Shown piece after piece: positions 45,164 to 58,269 of a stretch of 64,000 bases of DNA. Made by a program: the position numbers and the translations under genes. Under the pieces are notes generated by a model. It was not told where the DNA came from, made no database searches, and worked only from the letters and a program-made list of their open reading frames with translations. Position 1 is the stretch's first letter. Every line of letters starts with the position of its first letter. The DNA is taken from contig CP092079.1 in the NCBI GenBank assembly GCA_022226955.1, positions 1,891,053-1,955,052 on the forward strand. The letters run 5' to 3'. The stretch is from Nitrospira sp. (GTDB taxonomy: Bacteria > Nitrospirota > Nitrospiria > Nitrospirales > Nitrospiraceae).

Positions 45164-47215
45164 TCAAAAATACCAGGCTAAGCCGCCCATAACCATCCGT
45201 GGATTACCCGGTACAAAATGAATATCCGTAACGGCAGCCGGTTCATTGCGGAGCTGGGAGGCGAAGGCAAACGTCGCCTGCTCCCATTTCGTGTTGAAGA
45301 GATTCTGGATGAACAGGAACGCCTCCAGACGTCCATGGGACAGCTTGATCGGCAATTGATACCGCTCCGATAAATCGAAGTCGATCCAGGCTGGCGACTT
45401 GATGCTGCGGTCTTCGATCAACGGTCGCACGCCGAGGTAGGTCGCCTGCAATTGTGACGTCAGCCCTTCGGGCCATTTTAAGAGGAGCGCGCCATAGGCC
45501 GTCACTTCGGGAGCCAGGGGAATAGCATCGCCATTGCGGAATTCCGCCTTGGTCCAGGTGACGCTTCCGTTGAAATACAGCGGCCCCCACACCTGCCCGC
45601 GCGCGGCGACTTCCACGCCTTCTCGCGTGGTCGCTCCGCGAATTTCCGTTGTGCCTTCATCGCCGACAAAAACGAGCTCCGATTTCAGGTCAAGACGCCA
45701 GAGCGTGGCAATCAGTTCCAACCCCTCGGAGCCGAACGGTTTCGACCGCACCCCGATTTCATAGCTCCTGGCCCGCGCCAACGGTGACGATCCCAGCGCC
45801 ACCGCTGACCGTGCATCGTTGCTGTGATAGCCCTCGCCATAATTCAGGAACAATTCTGTGCTGGCCCAAGGCCCCAGGACCACATTCATCTTCGGCAACA
45901 CAATGCTCGAACTCTTCCGGCCCGCCGGTTGTTCAGCGCACGTGGCGCAACGATTACGAACATCAAAGGTAAACGTTTCACTCCGAAGACCGCCGGCCAG
46001 CCTGAGCCAATCCGTCGGCTGCACCTCCGCCTTGACGAAGGGAGCATAGGACGCTTCAAAAATATCGCTATCCGTCGTCACCCCCGTCACCGCCCGCCTC
46101 GTTTGCGTGCCAAGTCTGGCATGAATGTCGTCTACACGGCTTTGCACACCGATGGTCCCGATGCTGGGGATGCCGAACACCTCCCCTCGCTGCTTGTATC
46201 CGAGATCGCCTCCGTACATCACCCGGCGGTCGGCTTGGATAATTCCATCGCCGTTGACCGGGTCGTTCTGGAAGAAGGTGAAATTCGTATAGAGATCGAA
46301 TCGGTAATACTGCGCATAGGCGTTGGCAAAAAACTCTCCGCCTGTCGTCGTGTCGTAGTGGTATTTCAAATGCGCCGTCGTGCGCAGCGTCTTGCCGCCT
46401 TCCGACGGATCGATTGCCCCGAAACGATCAATGGTGCTGTCATGAACGGCCCGCAACGGAATCTCACCGGACGCATTCCAATGCGCCTGGTGAAACGTGG
46501 TTTTGAGGCTGAGCTCGTCCCGGCCGGTCAGGTTCGTCGTCGCCTTGCCGAACAGGTTGGCGCGAAAATACCGGTTATCGTATTCAAACGGCCCGTTCGT
46601 AAAATAGCCTTCGGCGGCAAACAGCGTACGAATCTTGTCCTTTGTCGGCGAGAACATCAGCAAGTAGCGCTGCGTGTCGAATTGGCCGCCCGCCCCCTGC
46701 ACTACGCCCTCATTGACCATCTCACGTGTTTTGAAATTCACCGCCCCAGCCGTGGTGAAATCGCCGTACTCGGGCAGATACGCCCCCTTGTTCACCTCCA
46801 AGCCCTCAATGGTTTCCGGAATAATGAAGTTGAGGTCGGTATAGCCCTGTCCGTGCGCATGGGAACGCATATTGACCGGCATCCCATCGGCAAAGAACCC
46901 CACATCGGTGCCGTGGTCGGCATCGAAGCCGCGCAGAAAATACTGATCGGCCTTCCCCGCGCCGCCGGAGTGCTCGACCGCGAGAAACCCTGGGATCAAT
47001 CGCAGCACCTGGGCCGGGCGGCCTTGCGGCTGAAGCAGATATTCTTTGTCGGGAATAAACTGCTGCGACGAGGCCGCCACCGGCCGCTCGCCGATCACAG
47101 ACACCTCCGGCACTTCCAATTCAGGCAGATCCGGGTCATGGGCCTGCGCCGATTCCCCTACGCCCAGCACAACGACTGCCGTCAGTATCCAGAGCGAAAC
47201 GCGTCTCATCTCCAT
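45164..47215 (-). CDS. TonB-dependent outer-membrane receptor, probable nickel receptor
   Basis: The 683-residue receptor has a signal peptide (LWILTAVVVLGVGESAQA), a TonB-box-like region near LEVPEVSVIGERPV, a plug domain (~50-165) with RLIPGFLAVEHSGGAGKADQ and RGFDADHGTDVGFFADGMPV, and a 22-strand barrel ending in MVMGGLAWYF with a terminal aromatic residue. The gene follows DUF3842 and nikR on the same strand, so it probably imports a nickel chelate. Its GAGGAG ribosome site supports the ATG at 47215 or 47209. Siderophore or other metal import is the alternative. Confidence 0.88.
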   Translation of the reverse strand: MEMRRVSLWILTAVVVLGVGESAQAHDPDLPELEVPEVSVIGERPVAASSQQFIPDKEYLLQPQGRPAQVLRLIPGFLAVEHSGGAGKADQYFLRGFDADHGTDVGFFADGMPVNMRSHAHGQGYTDLNFIIPETIEGLEVNKGAYLPEYGDFTTAGAVNFKTREMVNEGVVQGAGGQFDTQRYLLMFSPTKDKIRTLFAAEGYFTNGPFEYDNRYFRANLFGKATTNLTGRDELSLKTTFHQAHWNASGEIPLRAVHDSTIDRFGAIDPSEGGKTLRTTAHLKYHYDTTTGGEFFANAYAQYYRFDLYTNFTFFQNDPVNGDGIIQADRRVMYGGDLGYKQRGEVFGIPSIGTIGVQSRVDDIHARLGTQTRRAVTGVTTDSDIFEASYAPFVKAEVQPTDWLRLAGGLRSETFTFDVRNRCATCAEQPAGRKSSSIVLPKMNVVLGPWASTELFLNYGEGYHSNDARSAVALGSSPLARARSYEIGVRSKPFGSEGLELIATLWRLDLKSELVFVGDEGTTEIRGATTREGVEVAARGQVWGPLYFNGSVTWTKAEFRNGDAIPLAPEVTAYGALLLKWPEGLTSQLQATYLGVRPLIEDRSIKSPAWIDFDLSERYQLPIKLSHGRLEAFLFIQNLFNTKWEQATFAFASQLRNEPAAVTDIHFVPGNPRMVMGGLAWYF

Positions 47216-47335: not shown

Positions 47336-47761
47336 TCAGGCTTGGCAGGCTGCCCGCGCTAAGGATCCGACTCGCACGAGCGAGCGGTCGATCAACATCT
47401 CCAGGGTCCGATCTTCGGTCCCCACGATCTCCACCTGCGCCCGATTCAAGGGCAACAATACCTTCTTGGCCTTCGCCGCAAGAATCGCCTGCACAATCTC
47501 AGGAGTGACTTCGCCCAGCATGGCGCCGGGCAGCATCATATTCAACGACGCCACAATGACATCGACGGTCGGAACCCTGCGCGCAATCGCCTGCGGCCCA
47601 GCCGCCACCTGCCCGGCTCCGGCCTGCTTCATCGCATCGGCGGCCGCCACGTTCGTCCCCAATGCGACAATCTGGCATTCCGGTCCCAAGGTTGCCCGCA
47701 ACCCCGCCACCAGCCTGCACCCCAGTCCGCCACCGCGCCCATCGATGACACAGACTTGCAC
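47336..47761 (-). CDS. DUF3842 family protein
   Basis: The 141-residue protein starts at GTG, three bases after nikR ends. It begins with VCVIDGRGGGLGCRLVAGLR, a Rossmann-like nucleotide-binding start, and has LGTNVAAADAMKQAGAGQVA and VLLPLNRAQVEIVGTEDRTL, typical of DUF3842. The function of the family is unknown. Being between nikR and a TonB receptor gene links it to nickel homeostasis. Confidence 0.82.
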   Translation of the reverse strand: MQVCVIDGRGGGLGCRLVAGLRATLGPECQIVALGTNVAAADAMKQAGAGQVAAGPQAIARRVPTVDVIVASLNMMLPGAMLGEVTPEIVQAILAAKAKKVLLPLNRAQVEIVGTEDRTLEMLIDRSLVRVGSLARAACQA

Positions 47762-47764
47762 GGA

Positions 47765-48181
47765 CTAATCCAGCCCTTTGCCGGTAGTGGTCATCGTTAA
47801 CTTGCCGTGCTTCACGCCCTTCACACTCACGAGCGCATCGGCGATCTTTCTGATTTCCGAGCCTTTCCCCTTCACCACCAGCACTTCCAGGCAATGATCG
47901 TGGTCCAAATGCACGTGCATGCCGGAGAGAATCTTTCCGTGATAGTCGTGCTGGATATCGGTGAGCTTGCTCGTCAAGTCGCGGACATGGTGGTCGTAGA
48001 CGAACGTGATCGTCCCGACCGTTTCACGATTCCTACCCCATTCTTCCTCCACCAACTGATTCCGAATGAGATCCCGGAGCGCCTCCGACCGAGTCGCGTA
48101 TTGCCGCTGTTGAATGTGGCGGTCGAAATCTCCCAGCAGCCGCTGATCGAGCGATACCCCGAATCGAACCAATTTATCCAT
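47765..48181 (-). CDS. nikR: Nickel-responsive repressor NikR
   Basis: The 138-residue protein has an N-terminal ribbon-helix-helix ([32 protein letters not shown]) and a C-terminal ACT-like nickel domain with [20 protein letters not shown], conserving the HVH...C ligands. A further ligand His lies in the IQHDYHGK segment. It senses Ni(II) and represses nickel uptake genes. The operator-like site in front suggests autoregulation and control of the DUF3842 and TonB genes downstream. Confidence 0.92.
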
Positions 48182-48199: not shown

Positions 48200-48226
48200 G
48201 TGTTACGAATATTATTTTCATAGCAC
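48200..48226 (-). promoter_or_regulatory. NikR operator-like site
   Basis: GTGTTAC-N13-ATAGCAC (48200-48226) is an imperfect inverted repeat located 19 bases upstream of nikR. It is close to the GTGTTAC-N13/14-GTAACAC consensus known for Geobacter NikR (5 of 7 positions in the second half). Nickel-NikR bound here would shut down the nikR-DUF3842-TonB unit. Confidence 0.55.
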
Positions 48227-48322
48227 CATAAGGCCGGACAAATCAACCGGCTTGAATCCACTCACACATGATACGAGGACACAGCAGGAAACGGATGGTT
48301 GCCGTGGACGGAACGCGCGCTA

Positions 48323-49225
48323 TCAGAGCAGCTGGTTCTGAGGTGAAGAAATCACGAGCAGCACACACCCTTCGGCAGTCGACGTCTCATGATGTTCCGT
48401 GCCGGCTTCCGCGCGATGATAATCCCCCACCGCCATCTCGCGGCCGGCAATGGAACACCCGCCTTGCAGCACATACAGCTCTTCCATCTCCGTATGTCGA
48501 TGCGGTGGATACCGAGTCCCTGGAGCAAATCGCAACAGGGCGGTCGCTCTCCTGGAAACCAAATCGAACGACAGCGCCTTGGCCGCCACGCCAGGCGCAA
48601 TCTCCTGCCAGACGCCTTCCGCTGCCTTGATGAAAGCGAGACCCTGTTCATGCCGCCCCCCCTTCGCCTCGTCTGGCGTGGCACTCGACCGGTCGGAAAT
48701 CGCCAGAGTCCGCAGCAGGGTGCGCAGCGCATGCCAACACAACCGAAACGAGACGCACAGCGTTACGAACGCATGCCGCCACGCAAACGCCACGCGGCGA
48801 GACCATGCAGTGTCGGCAGGCACTTTCTTCAACCTCAGCGCCGGGCCGCTGGCATCTCGCTGGAGGTCCGGCCGGCCTTCTAGGCGAGCCATCAGCCGAT
48901 TCTTGACCGACGCCTGAGGGGACACCGGAACAGCCGCCGATGCCACCAGGCTGGCGGCCAGCTCGAACTGGCGGGCTTCCCGCTCAGCGTCCGCCGTTAC
49001 CATCGCTACCAGCCGCGCGCGCAACGCCGGAGAAGGCATCACGGGAGCGACGGCACCGGTCAATGCATCGGCAGCGGCGCGGTAGGCCGCCACCGTCTGC
49101 AGCGCGCGTGCAGCCTCGCCGTCTTGAACCCCGGCCAGCGCTGCAGCGAGACCCTCCTGATCCAATCCTCCAAAGGCCAGGACAATCGCCCGATCTTCCC
49201 ACTCTTCTGGTAATGATCGATCCAT
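48323..49225 (-). CDS. ChrR-like cupin anti-sigma factor
   Basis: The 300-residue protein (ATG 49225, TGATG overlap with the sigma gene) has a helical N-terminal half and a C-terminal cupin with RYPPHRHTEMEELYVLQGG (two His and a Glu for metal binding) and a later EHHETS. This is the ChrR layout. The N-terminus (AAALAGVQDGEAARAL) follows the helical anti-sigma pattern but shows no HxxxCxxC zinc motif. It should hold the sigma factor inactive until a signal, such as singlet oxygen, peroxide or metal, changes the cupin. Confidence 0.78.
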   Translation of the reverse strand: MDRSLPEEWEDRAIVLAFGGLDQEGLAAALAGVQDGEAARALQTVAAYRAAADALTGAVAPVMPSPALRARLVAMVTADAEREARQFELAASLVASAAVPVSPQASVKNRLMARLEGRPDLQRDASGPALRLKKVPADTAWSRRVAFAWRHAFVTLCVSFRLCWHALRTLLRTLAISDRSSATPDEAKGGRHEQGLAFIKAAEGVWQEIAPGVAAKALSFDLVSRRATALLRFAPGTRYPPHRHTEMEELYVLQGGCSIAGREMAVGDYHRAEAGTEHHETSTAEGCVLLVISSPQNQLL

Positions 49226-49827
49226 CACGGCGCCAACTCCGCCTCATAGGGCGCGAGAGCTTCGCGCAATTTCATCATGCCTAATCTGACGCGCGTCTTT
49301 ACGGTCCCCAGAGGCAGTCCCAGCTTGTCCGCGATATCGCTATGGCTCAACCCATAGAAATAGGCCAAGGCAATCGCCTGCCGCTGTTCGTCGGTCAAGA
49401 GCGCCAGCGCTCGCCGCACATACCGCTGGCGCTCCTGCCTCTGCGCATCCTGCTCCGGCGTGTCGCCAGCGCTGGCAAACAAATGAGCGGCATCCAGCGG
49501 TTCCATGCGCCCATGTTCCGCCGCACCGGCACGGAACCGGTCGATTGCCCTCGTCCGGGCGAGTGTCATCAACCAGGCACCAGGCGCGCCGCGCGCCCGG
49601 TCGTAGGTATGCGCCTGGCGCCAGACCTGCGTGTAGACATCCAGCGTGACTTCTTCGGCTGCCTCTCGATTATTGAGAATTTTGAACGCCAGCCCAAATA
49701 CTTGGGGGCTCGTGCGGTCGTACAAGGCAGCCACGGCGGCTTGATCGCCCTCCGCCGTCCTCGCAATCAACTGCTGCCATTCCTGCTCTTGATCCAATCC
49801 GGCCGTTTCCGGCGACATGAGCGACAT
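49225..49827 (-). CDS. ECF RNA polymerase sigma factor
   Basis: The ATG at 49827 follows GGGAGGG and gives 200 residues. Region 2 has ALYDRTSPQVFGLAFKIL and NREAAEEVTLDVYTQVWRQA, and region 4 has LTDEQRQAIALAYFYGLSHS and DIADKLGLPLGTVKTRVRLG. It belongs to the ECF11/SigK-like type that is often paired with ChrR-like anti-sigma proteins. The likely target is the divergent operon starting at 50057, which has a matching promoter-like sequence. Confidence 0.9.
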   Translation of the reverse strand: MSLMSPETAGLDQEQEWQQLIARTAEGDQAAVAALYDRTSPQVFGLAFKILNNREAAEEVTLDVYTQVWRQAHTYDRARGAPGAWLMTLARTRAIDRFRAGAAEHGRMEPLDAAHLFASAGDTPEQDAQRQERQRYVRRALALLTDEQRQAIALAYFYGLSHSDIADKLGLPLGTVKTRVRLGMMKLREALAPYEAELAP

Positions 49828-49963
49828 AGACCCTCCCCTTCCCATCTCTACGAGAACAGCGCCGCGATCGGATTGCCCATCGCGGACCATTCTACGCCCG
49901 TTCGATGGCGGCCATGCACAAGCCTCATTGACACAGCCCTGCTCCACATCCGCTTCAGGAAGA

Positions 49964-49993
49964 GATCCAACCGCGCATCGGCCTGCGTAAGGG
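49964..49993 (+). promoter_or_regulatory. Candidate ECF (sigma-E type) promoter of the DUF4331 operon
   Basis: AGATCC (49964-49969) and GTAAGG (49988-49993) are separated by 18 bases, close to the TGATCC...GTAAG-type promoters used by ChrR-paired ECF sigma factors. Transcription would begin near 50000, 57 bases before the lipoprotein start at 50057. Confidence 0.45.
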
Positions 49994-50056
49994 ACAACAG
50001 ACTGCCGGCAGCAGGCTCATTTAACCGTAGCTATTTTACATGAGGAGGATTCTGGC

Positions 50057-50281
50057 ATGAACACATCGTCCGCATTCGCAACGCTCGGGCTGATCTGCGC
50101 CGCCGGACTCTGGTCCGGATGCAGCGGCAGTGATAGCAGTCCTATCGTCGCCGCCGGTCCGGCGGCCGCGTCAGTCGATGACCGGCGCACACCGCAAACT
50201 GACGCGCTCACGGGCGCCGAGCAGGCGCTGGCGACACAAGCCGAGTCCGAGCCTGCCCCACCCACACGACCGGATTTATAA
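50057..50281 (+). CDS. Small lipoprotein
   Basis: The 74-residue product has a lipoprotein signal (ICAAGLWSGC) and a short, acidic, Ser/Ala/Pro-rich mature part. GAGGAGG lies just before the ATG at 50057. It is the first gene of the DUF4331-TPR-HupE set. A small GCCGCC-GACAA-GGCGGC hairpin (50287-50303) follows before the DUF4331 gene and may set the ratio of the two products. No family is recognised. Confidence 0.65.
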   Translation: MNTSSAFATLGLICAAGLWSGCSGSDSSPIVAAGPAAASVDDRRTPQTDALTGAEQALATQAESEPAPPTRPDL

Positions 50282-50323
50282 CCACCGCCGCCGACAAGGC
50301 GGCTTTGTCAGCAAGGAGGTTTT

Positions 50324-51802
50324 ATGCGCTCGCTGCTCCGTTCATTCACACTCACAACGCTGGCTTTCATGGCGGCGGCCCCGGCATTCGCCGCCAGCCA
50401 TCGGGAAGCGCCGCTCATCGCCAACGATCCGGCCGCCGACATCACCGACTTCTACTTCTTCAGAAGCTGGAACGATCCGGACAAAGCCGTGCTCATCATG
50501 AACGTGATCCCCGGCCAGGAACCTGGCTCCGGTCCTAACTACTTTAACTTCGCCGACGATGTGCTGTACGAGATTCACATCGACAACAATAAGAACAACG
50601 TCGCGGCGAATATCGTCTATGCCATCCGGTTCAAGACTGAATTCCGCCAGCCGGCGAACGTGTTTCCGCTCTCCTATGCCGCCTTGCCGCCGATTACGAG
50701 CTTGACAGGAGCCGGATCGGAAGGCTTGCTGCTGCGCCAAACCTACACGGTGACGGAAACCCGCTATGGCCTGCCGTCACGGGAGCTTGGCACAGGAACG
50801 ATGTACGCAGTGCCGTCGAACGTCGGTCCACGCACCACGCCGAACTATGAACAGCTCGCGGCCAAAGGAATTTTCCCGCTGAAGAATGGCGGGCGGGTCT
50901 TCGCCGGACAGCGTGACGAAACGTTTTACATCGATCTCGGGGGCACCTTCGACACCCTCAATCTGCACATCTCGCCGATTCTCTCTCCGTCCGACGACGC
51001 CAACGATGCCCTGCTCGTGGGCGCCGCGCGAGATACCTTCAGCGGATTCAATGTGAATACGATTGCGCTGGAAATCCCCATCCGCGACCTCATCGGCCCA
51101 AACGGCAATACTCTGCTCGGCGCCTACGCCAGCACCAGCCGCCCGAAAGTCACCGTCATCAAGAACGGCGGCAATCGCGACAACTCCTCGCGGTTCGTCC
51201 AAGTCGCGCGCATGGGCAATCCGCTCGTGAACGAATTGATCATTGCGACCGACCGGAAAGACAACTGGAATGCCACGGACGCGGAAGACGAAGCCGCGTT
51301 CCTGTCGTACTACTGCAACTCGGCGCTCGCCACGGCACTGAATACGGTCTTCGGCACCGGCTTCCCAACCGCCAACCGTGAAGACCTCGTCAATGCCCTG
51401 CTGCGCTATAGTCCTGGCCCGCCGGTCTGCGGCAGCGGCAAAACAAACGAAGACTTGTCCGACCTGTTGCGCGTGGATGTGAATGTGCCGCCCACCGCGG
51501 CCGCGAATCAGAAACGGCTGGGCCCGCTGGCCCACGATGCCAGCGGCAACGCCACGCCGGATAAAGCGGGATGGCCGAACGGCCGCCGGCCGAACGACGA
51601 CGTGACCGATGTCGCCCTGCGCGTCGTGGGCGGGATTCTCATCAACTCCGCCACGCCCTATCTCGGCGACGGCGTGAACGTCAACGTCGGAGCCGTTGGC
51701 GGCAACCTCACGGGGAACGGCGTCTCCACCGCGTTCCCCTTTCTCCCAACTCCTTTCGATGGACGCGATCGCCGCCACATCGATCCAGGCGAGTCCCAGT
51801 AG
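50324..51802 (+). CDS. DUF4331 domain-containing exported protein
   Basis: The 492-residue protein has a signal peptide (LTTLAFMAAAPAFA) and then SHREAPLIANDPAADITDFY, the hallmark start of DUF4331 proteins. Further family segments are YFNFADDVLYEIHIDNNKNN, FAGQRDETFYIDLGGTFDTL and PNDDVTDVALRVVGG. DUF4331 is large, periplasmic and of unknown function; His and Asp clusters suggest metal binding. AAGGAGG lies five bases before the ATG. In several bacteria it is found with TPR and HupE-type genes, as here, which suggests one functional unit. Confidence 0.9.
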   Translation: MRSLLRSFTLTTLAFMAAAPAFAASHREAPLIANDPAADITDFYFFRSWNDPDKAVLIMNVIPGQEPGSGPNYFNFADDVLYEIHIDNNKNNVAANIVYAIRFKTEFRQPANVFPLSYAALPPITSLTGAGSEGLLLRQTYTVTETRYGLPSRELGTGTMYAVPSNVGPRTTPNYEQLAAKGIFPLKNGGRVFAGQRDETFYIDLGGTFDTLNLHISPILSPSDDANDALLVGAARDTFSGFNVNTIALEIPIRDLIGPNGNTLLGAYASTSRPKVTVIKNGGNRDNSSRFVQVARMGNPLVNELIIATDRKDNWNATDAEDEAAFLSYYCNSALATALNTVFGTGFPTANREDLVNALLRYSPGPPVCGSGKTNEDLSDLLRVDVNVPPTAAANQKRLGPLAHDASGNATPDKAGWPNGRRPNDDVTDVALRVVGGILINSATPYLGDGVNVNVGAVGGNLTGNGVSTAFPFLPTPFDGRDRRHIDPGESQ

Positions 51803-51885
51803 TCCTCCGCCGCCGGATCGCGTGCGGGCGCGGCACAAGTGCCGCGCCCGCCAACACCCCATCTTATAAGCCCGAGGCTCCGCTG

Positions 51886-53079
51886 ATGACCCGGTCGCGA
51901 TGCACAACTCTGTTCACCCTGCTCATCTCGCTCGCACTGAGCCACAACACCCTGGCAGTTGCCACCCCCTATCGTCCATCGAATGAATCCCAGGTACTTG
52001 AACAACTCCGCGTCAACGCCGCCGATCCAACAGCGCGGGAGATTCGATCACTCCGAACTCGCCTGGCGGCAGAGCCCCACAACATCGCGCTCGCCACTGC
52101 GCTGGCCACACGCTACATTGAACGGAGCCGGGCAGAGGGAGACCCGCGCGACATGGGGCATGCCCAGGCCATCCTCAGTCCCTGGTGGGACAAGCCAGCC
52201 CCCCCGCCGGCCATCTTGCTCTTGCGGGCGATGATCAGACAGCATGCCCATCAGTTCGACGCGGCGCTGGCCGATCTAGATGCGGCGTTGCAGTCGCAAC
52301 CGGCCAGCGCGCAGGCCTGGCTGACCAAGGCGGCGATTCTTCAAGTGCAGGCACGCTACGACGACGCGCGCCGCGCCTGCCAGCCGCTGGCGCGTGTCGC
52401 CGCCCGCCATGTGTTGCTCGCCTGCCTCGGCGATATCGCAGGCCTGACCGGCCAAGCCGCCGCAAGCCAGGCGCTCTTCCACGGATTGCTCGATCGTCCG
52501 CAGATCTCAGGCCGTGAACGACTCTGGCTCTCGACGATACTAGCGGAGCTCTCCGCGCGCGCCGGTAACAGTTCCTCGGCGGAACGCTATTTCACCGCGG
52601 CATTGCAGGCGGGCGTGAGAGACCAGTACCTGCTGGGCGCCTACGCCGATTTCTTGCTGGATCAAGGCCGCTATCGAGACGTCCTGCGCCTGCTTCAGGC
52701 TGAGACAAAAATCGATGGCCTGCTCTTGCGGCTCGCACTGGCCGAGCACGCGCTGGGCCTGGAAGCCGCCGGCGATCATGCCTCGTTGCTTGCGGCGCGA
52801 TTCGCCGCCGGCCGTGAGCGCGGCGCGTCCGCGCATGCGCGGGAGGAAGCGCGGTTCGCGCTGGTCTTGCTCCAAGATCCACAACAAGCGCTATCGCTCG
52901 CCCGAGCCAATTGGACCGTCCAGCGCGAGCCTGCCGATGCCAGGATTCTGCTCGAAAGCGCACTGGCTACTGGAGATCCTCAGGCGGCTGAGCCGGTCCT
53001 TGACTGGCTCAGCCGCAATCGGATTGAAGACCAGCGCCTTCGCCAACTAGCCCAGCAGCTTCAGAGGCACGCTCGATGA
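51886..53079 (+). CDS. Exported TPR-repeat protein
   Basis: The 397-residue protein (ATG 51886, GAGG upstream) has a signal peptide (LFTLLISLALSHNTLA) and a helical repeat solenoid. Examples are LRAMIRQHAHQFDAALADLD followed by AALQSQPASAQAWLTKAAIL, giving seven or more TPR-like units over residues ~50-395. It is probably a scaffold in the periplasm. It overlaps the HupE-type gene by ATGA, so translation is coupled. Confidence 0.8.
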   Translation: MTRSRCTTLFTLLISLALSHNTLAVATPYRPSNESQVLEQLRVNAADPTAREIRSLRTRLAAEPHNIALATALATRYIERSRAEGDPRDMGHAQAILSPWWDKPAPPPAILLLRAMIRQHAHQFDAALADLDAALQSQPASAQAWLTKAAILQVQARYDDARRACQPLARVAARHVLLACLGDIAGLTGQAAASQALFHGLLDRPQISGRERLWLSTILAELSARAGNSSSAERYFTAALQAGVRDQYLLGAYADFLLDQGRYRDVLRLLQAETKIDGLLLRLALAEHALGLEAAGDHASLLAARFAAGRERGASAHAREEARFALVLLQDPQQALSLARANWTVQREPADARILLESALATGDPQAAEPVLDWLSRNRIEDQRLRQLAQQLQRHAR

Positions 53080-54200
53080 AACCGCTCCTGCTAGCGCTTA
53101 TACTCATACTCTTCGTCCAACCGGCCTGGGCCCACAAATCCAGCGACAGCTATCTGTCGTTGCGCCTGCACGACCACCTGATCGAAGGCCAGTGGGATAT
53201 CGCCTTGAGGGACTTGGACGATGCGATCGGATTGGATCGGGACGACGATGGGGCGATCACCTGGGGCGAAACGAACGCCCGCCATGCCGCCATCGCCGCC
53301 TACGCGCTCTCGCGCCTCACGCTGACCGCCGGGGGAACGACCTGCGCCACCGCGGTCACCGATCACCTCATCGACCACCATACAGACGGCGCCTACGCGG
53401 TGCTGCGGTTCACTGCCGTATGTTCATCGACTCGCGCGCCGCTGGCCGTCGACTACCGCCTCCTCTTCGATCTCGACGCCCAGCACAAGGGACTGCTCCG
53501 TCTGGCGCACGCACACAACACTCGAACGGCGATTTTCAGCCGAGACGTTCCTGCGCAAACATTCCCACTGGATACTCCCTCCGCCTGGCCGGAAATTCGG
53601 CAATATCTGCGCGAAGGTATCTGGCATATCTGGACAGGATTCGACCATCTGCTCTTTCTACTTACGCTGCTGCTGCCCGCGGTGCTCGTTCGCGTGAACG
53701 ACCGCTGGCAGGCGGTCGAGACGTTTTCTTCCGCCGCGCGTGAATCCGCCGCCATCGTCACCGCCTTCACGGCCGCCCACTCTCTCACCTTGAGCCTCGC
53801 CGCGCTGGACATCGTTCATTTGCCATCCCGCCTGGTTGAATCGACCATTGCAGCTTCGGTCATCCTCGCAGGGGTCGCGAATCTCTATCCGGAAATCGCT
53901 CAGCGTCGCTGGCCAGTCGCCTTCGCGTTCGGCCTCATCCATGGGTTCGGATTCGCCGGAGTCCTGTCGGATTTTGGGTTGCCGCAAGATGCCCTGCTGC
54001 TCAGTCTCGTCAGTTTCAACGCCGGCGTCGAGATCGGCCAACTCGCCATCGTGGCCCTGTTTCTTCCACTGGCCTATGGCATCCGCCAGTCGTCGTCCTA
54101 CCAGCCACTCATCGTCCGAGCCGGATCGGTCATCATCATTCTGATCGCCTTTGTGTGGCTGATTGAGCGGGCACTCGCCCTCAAGCTGCTTCCCGCCTAA
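53076..54200 (+). CDS. HupE/UreJ-family membrane protein with EF-hand in the exported domain
   Basis: The 374-residue protein has a signal peptide (LALILILFVQPAWAH) and a periplasmic domain. A perfect EF-hand loop there runs from Asp54 to Glu65 (DRDDDGAITWGE: D-x-D-x-D-G-x-I-x-x-x-E). The C-terminal half has six helices with GIWHIWTGFDHLLFLLTLLL, TAAHSLTLSLAAL and AFAFGLIHGFGFAGVL, typical of the HupE/UreJ_2 family (nickel/cobalt transport-like). It may import or sense a metal in calcium-dependent fashion. Its partners are the TPR and DUF4331 proteins. Confidence 0.87.
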   Translation: MKPLLLALILILFVQPAWAHKSSDSYLSLRLHDHLIEGQWDIALRDLDDAIGLDRDDDGAITWGETNARHAAIAAYALSRLTLTAGGTTCATAVTDHLIDHHTDGAYAVLRFTAVCSSTRAPLAVDYRLLFDLDAQHKGLLRLAHAHNTRTAIFSRDVPAQTFPLDTPSAWPEIRQYLREGIWHIWTGFDHLLFLLTLLLPAVLVRVNDRWQAVETFSSAARESAAIVTAFTAAHSLTLSLAALDIVHLPSRLVESTIAASVILAGVANLYPEIAQRRWPVAFAFGLIHGFGFAGVLSDFGLPQDALLLSLVSFNAGVEIGQLAIVALFLPLAYGIRQSSSYQPLIVRAGSVIIILIAFVWLIERALALKLLPA

Positions 54201-55722: not shown

Positions 55723-58269
55723 TTATAATTCGATATGCCGTAACCGAAGGGCGTTCGAAATCACCGACACCGAACTGAGGGTCATGGCGGCGCTGGCGAT
55801 CATCGGACTCAGCAACAACCCGGTGAAGGGATAGAGCACCCCGGCGGCAATCGGCACACCCAGCAGATTGTAGGCAAAGGCGAAGAACAGATTTTGCCGG
55901 ATGTTTCGCATCGTCGCGACACTCAGGCGGCGCGCCCGAACGAGCGCCTGCACATCGCCATTCAACAACGTCATGCCGGCATGCTCTATCGCAATGTCGG
56001 CCCCAGTCCCCATGGCAATCCCGACATCGGCCAGCGCCAAGGCCGGCGCGTCGTTCACGCCGTCTCCCGCCATCGCCACGACCCGGCCGCCGGCTTTGAG
56101 TTCACGAACGATGTGCCCTTTCTGTTCCGGCAACACCCCGGCCCTCACCTCATCGATCCCAAGTTGTTTGGCCACGGCCTGCGCGGTGCGCTCATGGTCC
56201 CCGGTCACCATGACCAACCGAAGCCCATCGGCTTTCAATCGCTGAATGGCGTCCGCCGAGGAGGCCTTGATCGGGTCGGCGGCCCCTAACAAGCCGGCCG
56301 CCTTCCCATTGATCGCCACAAACATGACCGTCTGCCCCCGTTCGCGAAACGCGGCCGCTTCTTCCTCCAATACCTCTAGAGTCCGCCCCACCACACCGCC
56401 GCGGTCGCTCAAGAATGCCGCGGTCCCAATCGCCACCGACTGGCCGTCGACGATGCCGGTCACACCCTTTCCGGTAACGGCTAGAAACTCCTTCACTGAA
56501 GCCAACGCGATGCCGCGCGCCCTCGCACCGGAGACAATGGCCTCGGCCAACGGATGTTCACTGCCCTGTTCGAGGCTGGCGGCGCAGCGCAACACATCTC
56601 GATCGCTATAGGGCGGCACAAACCGGACCGAGGCCAGCACCGGCCTCCCTTCGGTCAATGTGCCGGTCTTGTCGAAGACGATCGTATCCACACGTCCGAG
56701 GACTTCCAACGCTTCCGCGTTCTTGACCAACACCCCAGCCGTCGCGCCGCGCCCGGTTCCCACCATAATGGACATCGGTGTCGCCAGACCCAACGCGCAG
56801 GGACAGGCGATGATGAGCACCGCCACGGCATTCACCAGCGCATAGGCCAGCTTCGGTTCCGGCCCGAGCCAGATCCAAGCCACGGCGGTCAGCACAGCTG
56901 CGCCCACGACGAGCGGAACAAAATAGCCGGCGGCCGCATCGGCCACTCGTTGGATCGGCGCCCGGCTCCGCTGCGCGTCGCTGACCATCTGCACGATGCG
57001 CGCGAGCAGCGTATCGCGACCGACCTTCTGCGCCTGCATTACCAAACTGCCGGTCCCATTCATCGTGCCGCCGGTCACCATCGAACCAACGGTCTTCTCC
57101 ACTGGAATCGATTCGCCGGTCATCATGGATTCATCGACGGCAGAACCGCCATCGACCACCCTGCCATCGACGGGAATACGCTCGCCAGGCCGCACTCGCA
57201 ACCGGTCGCCGATCTGCACCTGATCGAGGGGAATATCGACTTCCCGGCCATCCCGCACAACCCGCGCCGTCTTCGGAGCCAATCGCAACAGCCCCTTGAT
57301 GGAAGAAGACGTCTGGCTCCGGGCGCGAAGTTCCAGAATCTGGCCGAGCAGCACCAGCACCGTAATCATCGCAGCCGCTTCAAAGTACACCGCGACGCCG
57401 CCGCCATGCTGATGAAAGGACGCCGGCAACCACTCAGGAATGACCGTGCCGACGGTGCTGAATCCATAGGCGGCGCCAGTACCGATGGCGATCAGCGTAA
57501 ACATGTTGGGCGCCCGATTGACGATCGAAGCCCACCCGCGCTGAAAAAACGGAAACCCACCCCATAGCACGACTGGCGTCGCCAGCAGCCATTGCACCCA
57601 ATTCAATCGCGCGCCGCCCAGCCACTGATGCAGCGGTTGTCTCGGAATCATATCCGACATGGCAAGGATCATCACCGCCACCGCCGGACCGAGACTCCAC
57701 CAAAACCGGCGGCTCATATCGTCGAGCTCCGGATTCGGCCCCTCTTCCATCGTCACGATCTTCGGCTCTAGCGCCATCCCGCAAATACGGCATGCGCCTG
57801 GCTTCGTCTCAAGGATCTCGGGATCCATCGGACAGATGTATTCGACTGCCGCACCAGCTGGGACCGCAACCTCGCGAGCAGGGCGCTGGTCAGGCGGCAA
57901 CACGTAGTAGGCGGGATCGTTCTTGAACTTCGTCAGGCAGCTCGTCGCACAGAAATAATAGGTCTTCCTTTCATGGACGTGCGAGCCAGCCGCGGTTTCC
58001 GGCTGTACCGTCATGCCACAGACCGGATCGAGCGCACCGCCGGCGGCAGGCACCGCCGGCATCATCATCGGGAGCGGTTTTCGCGCAGTGGAAGAGATTG
58101 GCATTGTGAGAAGAGGAGCCTGAACCTTTTGCAAGGCCTTCTCGGGATCGGCACTGAACCGATCCAGACAGGAGGTCGCGCAAAAATAGTACGTCTGCTC
58201 CCGGTACTCAAACCGGCCGGCCGCCTTGTTCGGATCGACCGTCATGCCGCAAATTGGATCGATCGCCAT
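55723..58269 (-). CDS. P1B-type copper-transporting ATPase with two YHS domains
   Basis: The 848-residue protein has two N-terminal YHS/TRASH domains ([20 protein letters not shown], ~1-45; [20 protein letters not shown], ~80-125) and a heavy-metal-binding segment [20 protein letters not shown]. The ATPase core has [15 protein letters not shown] (~488), DKTGT (~530), SEHPLAEAI (~568) and GDGVNDAP (~736). The CPC motif fits Cu+ export. The YHS domains replace the usual CxxC HMA domains and may take metal from a reduced chaperone. A DsbA-like gene is next. Confidence 0.93.

Follow-up and report, generated by a model that had tools for sequence, protein, structure and literature searches.

Here, we examined a 64-kb window from the 3.6-Mb genome of a Nitrospira bacterium (its DUF4331 protein is 95% identical to the closest named match, that of Nitrospira sp. 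SJ32). In this window, the genes for an extracytoplasmic function (ECF) sigma factor and a cupin protein face a divergent operon for a small lipoprotein, a DUF4331 protein, a tetratricopeptide repeat (TPR) protein and a HupE/UreJ-type permease (Table 1). Genes were called from open reading frames (ORFs) and Pfam scans of the window, and all those listed in the original prediction, an earlier annotation made from the DNA letters, were recovered where it had placed them, including the ATGA overlap of the TPR and HupE genes at 53076-53079. Its outline of the unit, however, stopped too early on the left, where nikR, a DUF3842 gene and the gene for a TonB-dependent receptor appear to belong to the same regulon. 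The ECF sigma gene is likewise real, but its proposed GTG start at 49947 gives way to the ATG at 49827, which is most likely the true start, behind AGGGGAGGG, because the promoter element of the gene itself lies between the two codons and homologs are about 200 aa long.

Table 1. Features of the regulon in the window and NicO-type permease genes of four related loci
Feature	Position	Strand	Evidence
TonB-dependent outer-membrane receptor, 683 aa, encoded at the end of the nikR operon	45164..47215	-	Pfam barrel and plug
DUF3842 protein	47336..47761	-	PF12953, 137 bits
NikR, nickel-responsive repressor	47765..48181	-	NCBIfam equivalog NF003381
Predicted NikR operator, GTGCTAT-N13-GTAACAC	48200..48226	-	Conserved nikR upstream regions
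ECF promoter element of the nikR operon, ATCC-N17-CGTA	48272..48296	-	Motif scan
Putative cupin anti-sigma factor, 301 aa, overlapping the end of the sigma gene	48323..49228	-	PF12973
ECF sigma factor, 200 aa	49225..49827	-	PF08281/PF04542; position of promoter element and ribosome-binding site
ECF promoter element of the sigma-cupin operon	49849..49873	-	Motif scan
ECF promoter element of the lipoprotein-DUF4331-TPR-HupE operon, overlapping the originally proposed site	49965..49989	+	Motif scan
Small lipoprotein, 74 aa	50057..50281	+	Lipobox LWSGC
DUF4331 protein, exported (AFA/ASHREAP), 492 aa	50324..51802	+	PF14224
Exported TPR protein, 397 aa	51886..53079	+	PF14559 at cutoff
HupE/UreJ_2 permease with N-terminal Ang-1-type domain	53076..54200	+	PF13795 and model fold match
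NicO-type permeases	L061 4290-5735; L062 12817-14253; L063 12772-14318 (two ORFs); L064 9222-10622		

The feature that ties the three transcription units together is a shared promoter element. Alignment of upstream regions revealed that ATCC-N16/17-CGTA is conserved before the lipoprotein gene, and the same element is repeated divergently before the sigma gene and again before nikR, with all three copies kept across Nitrospira. Among 37 loci, 34 sites were located at nikR, 31 at the sigma gene, 25 at the lipoprotein gene and 9 at an inserted globin gene, compared with an overall density of 0.17 per kb across the loci retrieved; in its 17-base-spacer form, it has a single match in the window beyond the three promoter sites. 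The promoter originally proposed for the operon, AGATCC-N18-GTAAGG, is present (1 match in 64 kb versus 0.00 expected), but the form under conservation is ATCC-N16/17-CGTA, with its two further copies; the pattern [N]GATC[N]-N15-20-[N]TAAG, when searched in relatives, turned up at this position in the window alone. Pattern matching across 11 whole genomes with a stricter form of the element returned 1-7 sites each (0-1 for a reversed control), and nearly all those outside the gene cluster fall within ORFs, which suggests a small, local regulon. The element lies between the sigma and DUF4331 genes in other Nitrospirales genera as well, and such co-occurrence, along with the apparent autoregulation, suggests that this sigma factor would be the one to recognize it. 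In one locus (L034, 4933-8933), genes for a globin lipoprotein, a cytochrome c and a DUF4394 protein are inserted between the sigma gene and the DUF4331 operon, with a separate copy of the element before the globin gene; a globin insert is found in about eight other loci.

The neighboring genes were compared by tblastn with 55 loci from species-representative genomes, ~35 of them from Nitrospira. Most of the Nitrospira loci share a common order, with the receptor, DUF3842 (where present), NikR, cupin and sigma genes on one strand, and the lipoprotein, DUF4331, TonB (where present), TPR and HupE genes on the opposite one. Across 59 genomes of the genus, DUF4331 and the cupin are both present in 29, both absent from 28 and discordant in 2, so that the genes grouped in the original prediction are not unlinked in relatives; HupE is discordant in 5, several of which are incomplete assemblies or contig ends. 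In most of the examined genomes that lack the module, degP is the immediate neighbor of nikR, whose promoter is mostly of the TTGAC type, overlapped by a palindromic NikR box, e.g., GTGCTAC-N13-GTAGCAC. The ECF element before nikR is missing in 10 of 12 such loci and kept in 2, one of which retains a 29-residue cupin remnant (Fisher p ~2e-6, a value not corrected for phylogeny that overstates the evidence because the species are related). Cupin remnants were detected in five genomes (G007, G013, G022, G034 and G038), several of them beside nikR and the one in G007 with an internal stop. Given the joint presence and absence, the adjacency of degP and nikR where the module is missing, the lost ECF element and the cupin fragments, the module, along with the ECF element on nikR, seems to be gained and lost as a single piece. 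A copper-type ATPase and degP were considered as further members and rejected, given that both remain neighbors of nikR in genomes without the module.

Beyond the genus, the DUF4331-TPR-HupE arrangement is also found in beta- and gammaproteobacteria and in a Rhodospirillum, and in one Methylovulum, the gene following HupE encodes a receptor 33% identical to that of the window. A sigma gene without a cupin gene lies near DUF4331 in one deltaproteobacterial genome, and one locus (L052, 14954-16242) carries a second sigma/cupin pair downstream of HupE. These distributions bear on the possibility that the sigma/cupin pair, the DUF4331 operon and the nikR-receptor genes are adjacent by history only. 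The many genomes in which nikR and the receptor gene stand alone would fit such a history; one promoter element common to all three units, their joint gain and loss, and the recurrence of sigma and cupin genes near DUF4331 in other Nitrospirales and in one Competibacteraceae, Rhodocyclaceae and Methylococcaceae genome render it highly improbable. We consider co-regulation and modular inheritance to be well supported.

The link to nickel starts from NikR. The protein scores 206.5 bits against the NF003381 model (cutoff 105), and it aligns with the solved NikR 2bj1 at the His/His/Cys stretch (HVHLDHDHC) and at the QH before it. The predicted operator, which resembles the delta-proteobacterial NikR signal GTGTTAC-N13/14-GTAACAC (PMC545781) and to which NikR would bind, sits between the ECF element and nikR and has been kept upstream of nikR in almost every module-bearing locus. 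A strict operator pattern matches at nikR alone in 15 of 15 genomes; therefore, the nikR-DUF3842-receptor operon is probably the main target of NikR, and the receptor, a TonB-dependent barrel with a plug (PF00593 and PF07715), is best read as a nickel-chelate receptor. The receptor gene adjoins nikR in Nitrospira both with and without the module, with DUF3842 between the two in many relatives and missing in others. Sequence search identified no relative of the receptor in the PDB. The mature receptor is predicted to start with a His (AQA/HDPDLPE), just before a TonB-box-like stretch, and the AHD mature start recurs in 25 of 30 homologs.

The permease offers a second line of evidence. It scores 164.7 bits against PF13795 (HupE_UreJ_2; cutoff 24.5), and its sequence finds at most a chance-level match in the PDB. 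In the AlphaFold model, built with 16 homologs (predicted local distance difference test, pLDDT, 82.7), the extracytoplasmic domain superimposes on Ang-1 (PDB 9GCE) with Z 12.6 and a root-mean-square deviation of 3.0 over 133 aligned residues (Foldseek probability 1.00, E 1.1e-5), followed by the zinc proteins ZrgA and PA4063 with Z 10-11. Ang-1 denotes metal-binding domains joined to HupE/UreJ-2 permeases, a family that was described in 2025 under the name ‘anglerase’ (PMC12537917). With the crystallized RbAng-1a, the window protein shares the PF13795 membrane domain, an exported beta-sandwich in which three helices separate strands 2 and 3, and a His at the N terminus left by the signal peptide. 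The predicted mature N terminus is His20 (AWA/HKSSDSYL, with the cleavage site read by eye), and AH[KP] is found in 32 of 34 homologs, the others being one GHK and one mis-called ORF. An EF-hand-like loop, DRDDDGAITWGE, lies in the extracytoplasmic domain (window 53230-53275). The system is undescribed insofar as none of the open-license papers searched names DUF4331 or PF14224, but its HupE half has been published as Ang-1. The Ang-1 paper (PMC12537917) does not name DUF4331, the neighbors that it lists are different (DUF4198, indigoidine-like and PfkB), and in its available portions neither the sigma/cupin and NikR context nor a NicO-bearing variant is found.

Such a variant exists in four Nitrospirota loci (L061-L064), where a NicO-type Ni/Co permease takes the place of HupE behind DUF4331-TPR and carries its own exported N-terminal domain, starting with AHPMGN, possibly an Ang-like domain on a NicO permease. 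Because two Ni/Co permease families occupy one slot, nickel or cobalt is favored as the substrate. The main rival is copper or another metal, whereby the same architecture would serve copper (or zinc/cobalt) acquisition or trafficking and NikR would control only the older receptor operon. Indeed, the crystallized Ang-1 member binds Cu2+ at 74 nM and Ni2+ at 220 nM and coordinates copper through its N-terminal His (PMC12537917); the closest folds after Ang-1 are those of zinc proteins, the DUF4331 operon is without a NikR operator, and a copper-type P-type ATPase, named from sequence motifs, is encoded nearby (55723-58269). This ATPase, however, keeps its place beside nikR without the module, as does degP, and hence neither is part of it; moreover, the sigma element is present on nikR itself, and the permease that substitutes for HupE belongs to another Ni/Co family. 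We therefore consider a different metal unlikely.

The regulatory pair departs from what had been expected of it. The cupin protein matches PF12973 (ChrR Cupin-like) with 70.3 bits (cutoff 27), and the four ligands known from ChrR, H243, H245, E249 and H279 (H-x-H-x3-E and a later H), are invariant in all Nitrospira rows of the alignment. The protein may hold a sigma factor as ChrR does. Its N-terminal 150 residues contain neither Cys nor His, and Nitrospira homologs have 0-1 Cys in this region; because the anti-sigma domain is without Cys, the zinc-binding HHCC site (H-x3-C-x2-C) of ChrR and RsrA is absent, and the ChrR subfamily model TIGR02451 yields 34.6 bits, far under its cutoff of 124.5. 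By its sequence, the protein thus falls outside the ZAS family: the predicted ChrR-like cupin stands, with its ligands intact, but the zinc domain is missing, and the oxidant or singlet-oxygen response once proposed is not supported. These data also weigh on the lesser rival, a redox or nitric oxide response, namely, a ChrR-kind redox/nitrosative stress regulon, in which the cupin would sense reactive species and the operon would repair or protect the envelope. The intact cupin ligands are compatible with it, as is the globin lipoprotein gene behind the same promoter element in ~9 relatives (one with cytochrome c and DUF4394). However, given the missing HHCC domain, the score far below the ChrR models, a regulon core of receptor, TonB and permease rather than peroxidases or lipid-repair genes, and the few further promoter-like sites in the genome, such a regulon is quite improbable. 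That the cupin is possibly a metal sensor, with metal occupancy as the signal, is an attractive guess.

The remaining products of the operon are exported. The lipoprotein is conserved in Nitrospira loci with 48-84% identity, and the TPR protein with 57-63% in most Nitrospira and 81% in the nearest one. DUF4331 matches PF14224 over its full length (352.7 bits, cutoff 27, profile positions 2-421 of 421). Its model (pLDDT 75; predicted template modeling score, pTM, 0.79) is beta-rich, has no structural match in the PDB with E < 0.001, and sequence search likewise identified no PDB relative. The best VIA-align match, with Z 6.2 to immunoglobulin domains, is at a level that the program's notes call common for unrelated proteins, and for this reason we claim only a beta-rich fold. 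Two strictly conserved stretches, ASHREAP...DP.AD.TD near the mature N terminus and PNGRRPNDDV near the C terminus, point to a defined site. A DxNxDG loop similar to the DRDDDGAITWGE loop of HupE occurs in proteobacterial DUF4331 and is degenerate in that of Nitrospira. Of 33 readable sequences (the window and distant relatives counted), 18 have a tonB gene in the interval from DUF4331 to TPR; at the corresponding place in the window (51803-51885), as in several other Nitrospira loci, the tonB-like gene of the relatives is missing.

Taken together, we propose from the sequence evidence, with a probability of roughly 0.6, that the locus forms a self-contained accessory unit, sigma-switched and nickel-limited, that takes up a metal, most likely nickel, across the envelope. 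The cytoplasmic cupin anti-sigma factor would hold the ECF sigma factor until released, whereupon the latter would transcribe its own operon, lipoprotein-DUF4331-(TonB)-TPR-HupE and nikR-DUF3842-receptor. The receptor would carry a nickel chelate over the outer membrane with energy from TonB. In the periplasm, DUF4331 and the TPR protein would probably bind the metal or its complex or pass it on; the ion would be captured by the N-terminal His domain of HupE, whose membrane domain would move it into the cytoplasm. Once loaded with nickel, NikR would bind its operator, which lies downstream of the promoter for the sigma factor, and stop receptor production. The direction of transport, nickel as the substrate, the signal and the role of DUF4331 are all inferred, and nickel uptake as the purpose is somewhat favored. 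The host genome encodes urease and a Ni-Fe hydrogenase. Accordingly, of the metal- or oxidant-responsive envelope system originally predicted to move or buffer a metal, what remains is one conserved, co-regulated metal-handling module, without the oxidant part and with uptake preferred over buffering; NikR with its operator and receptor and the HupE/NicO permeases make nickel the most likely metal.

Several observations weigh against this proposal. No NikR operator was found at the DUF4331 operon in a profile search of seven sequences, Ang-1 prefers copper over nickel in vitro (PMC12537917), and nikR was not seen beside DUF4331 outside Nitrospira. One genome (G052) has a divergent DUF4331 operon without the cupin, and two loci (L032, 8300-9300, and L033, 8300-9200) have the operon and promoter elements with no linked sigma/cupin gene found. 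The nikR-receptor pair exists without the module in ~25 genomes of the genus; therefore, the nickel link rests on the promoter element and the permease class. Finally, the comparisons lie nearly all within one genus.

In FecI-type systems, an ECF sigma factor switches on the operon of a TonB-dependent receptor, and the anti-sigma factor is the membrane protein FecR. The Nitrospira system resembles these in that an ECF sigma factor would turn on a receptor operon, but its anti-sigma factor would be a cupin protein rather than a membrane FecR. Like the NikR-repressed, TonB-dependent nickel receptors FrpB4 and FecA3 of Helicobacter (listed in PMC11247825), to which we liken it by arrangement, the Nitrospira receptor is TonB-dependent, with TonB energization, and placed under a NikR operator; unlike in Helicobacter, nikR and the receptor gene stand in one operon, which has a second promoter element of the ECF type. 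With RpoE-ChrR (ECF11) of Rhodobacter (PMC6852236), the pair shares the order of ECF sigma followed by an anti-sigma with a C-terminal cupin, the conserved cupin ligands and, by prediction, autoregulation; it differs in the lack of the zinc-binding HHCC domain and in its probable targets, metal uptake instead of singlet-oxygen defense. A bolder and rather doubtful extension is that the cupin is a direct cytoplasmic sensor of metal occupancy that dispenses with the ChrR redox zinc finger, and that DUF4331 represents a novel class of carrier, periplasmic (or released), for metal or metal chelate, which hands nickel from the receptor to the Ang-type permease. The whole would then be, for nickel, a sigma-switched equivalent of siderophore uptake that is widespread among nitrifiers and methanotrophs.

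Nickel is required by nitrifiers for urease and hydrogenase. Placed in a putative regulon of three promoters with NikR, a receptor and an Ang-type permease, DUF4331, a family without a known function, gains a testable job. The regulon further raises the question of how a cupin anti-sigma factor operates without a redox zinc site, and a single genus here offers a natural with/without comparison of how a regulatory cassette captures a resident operon.

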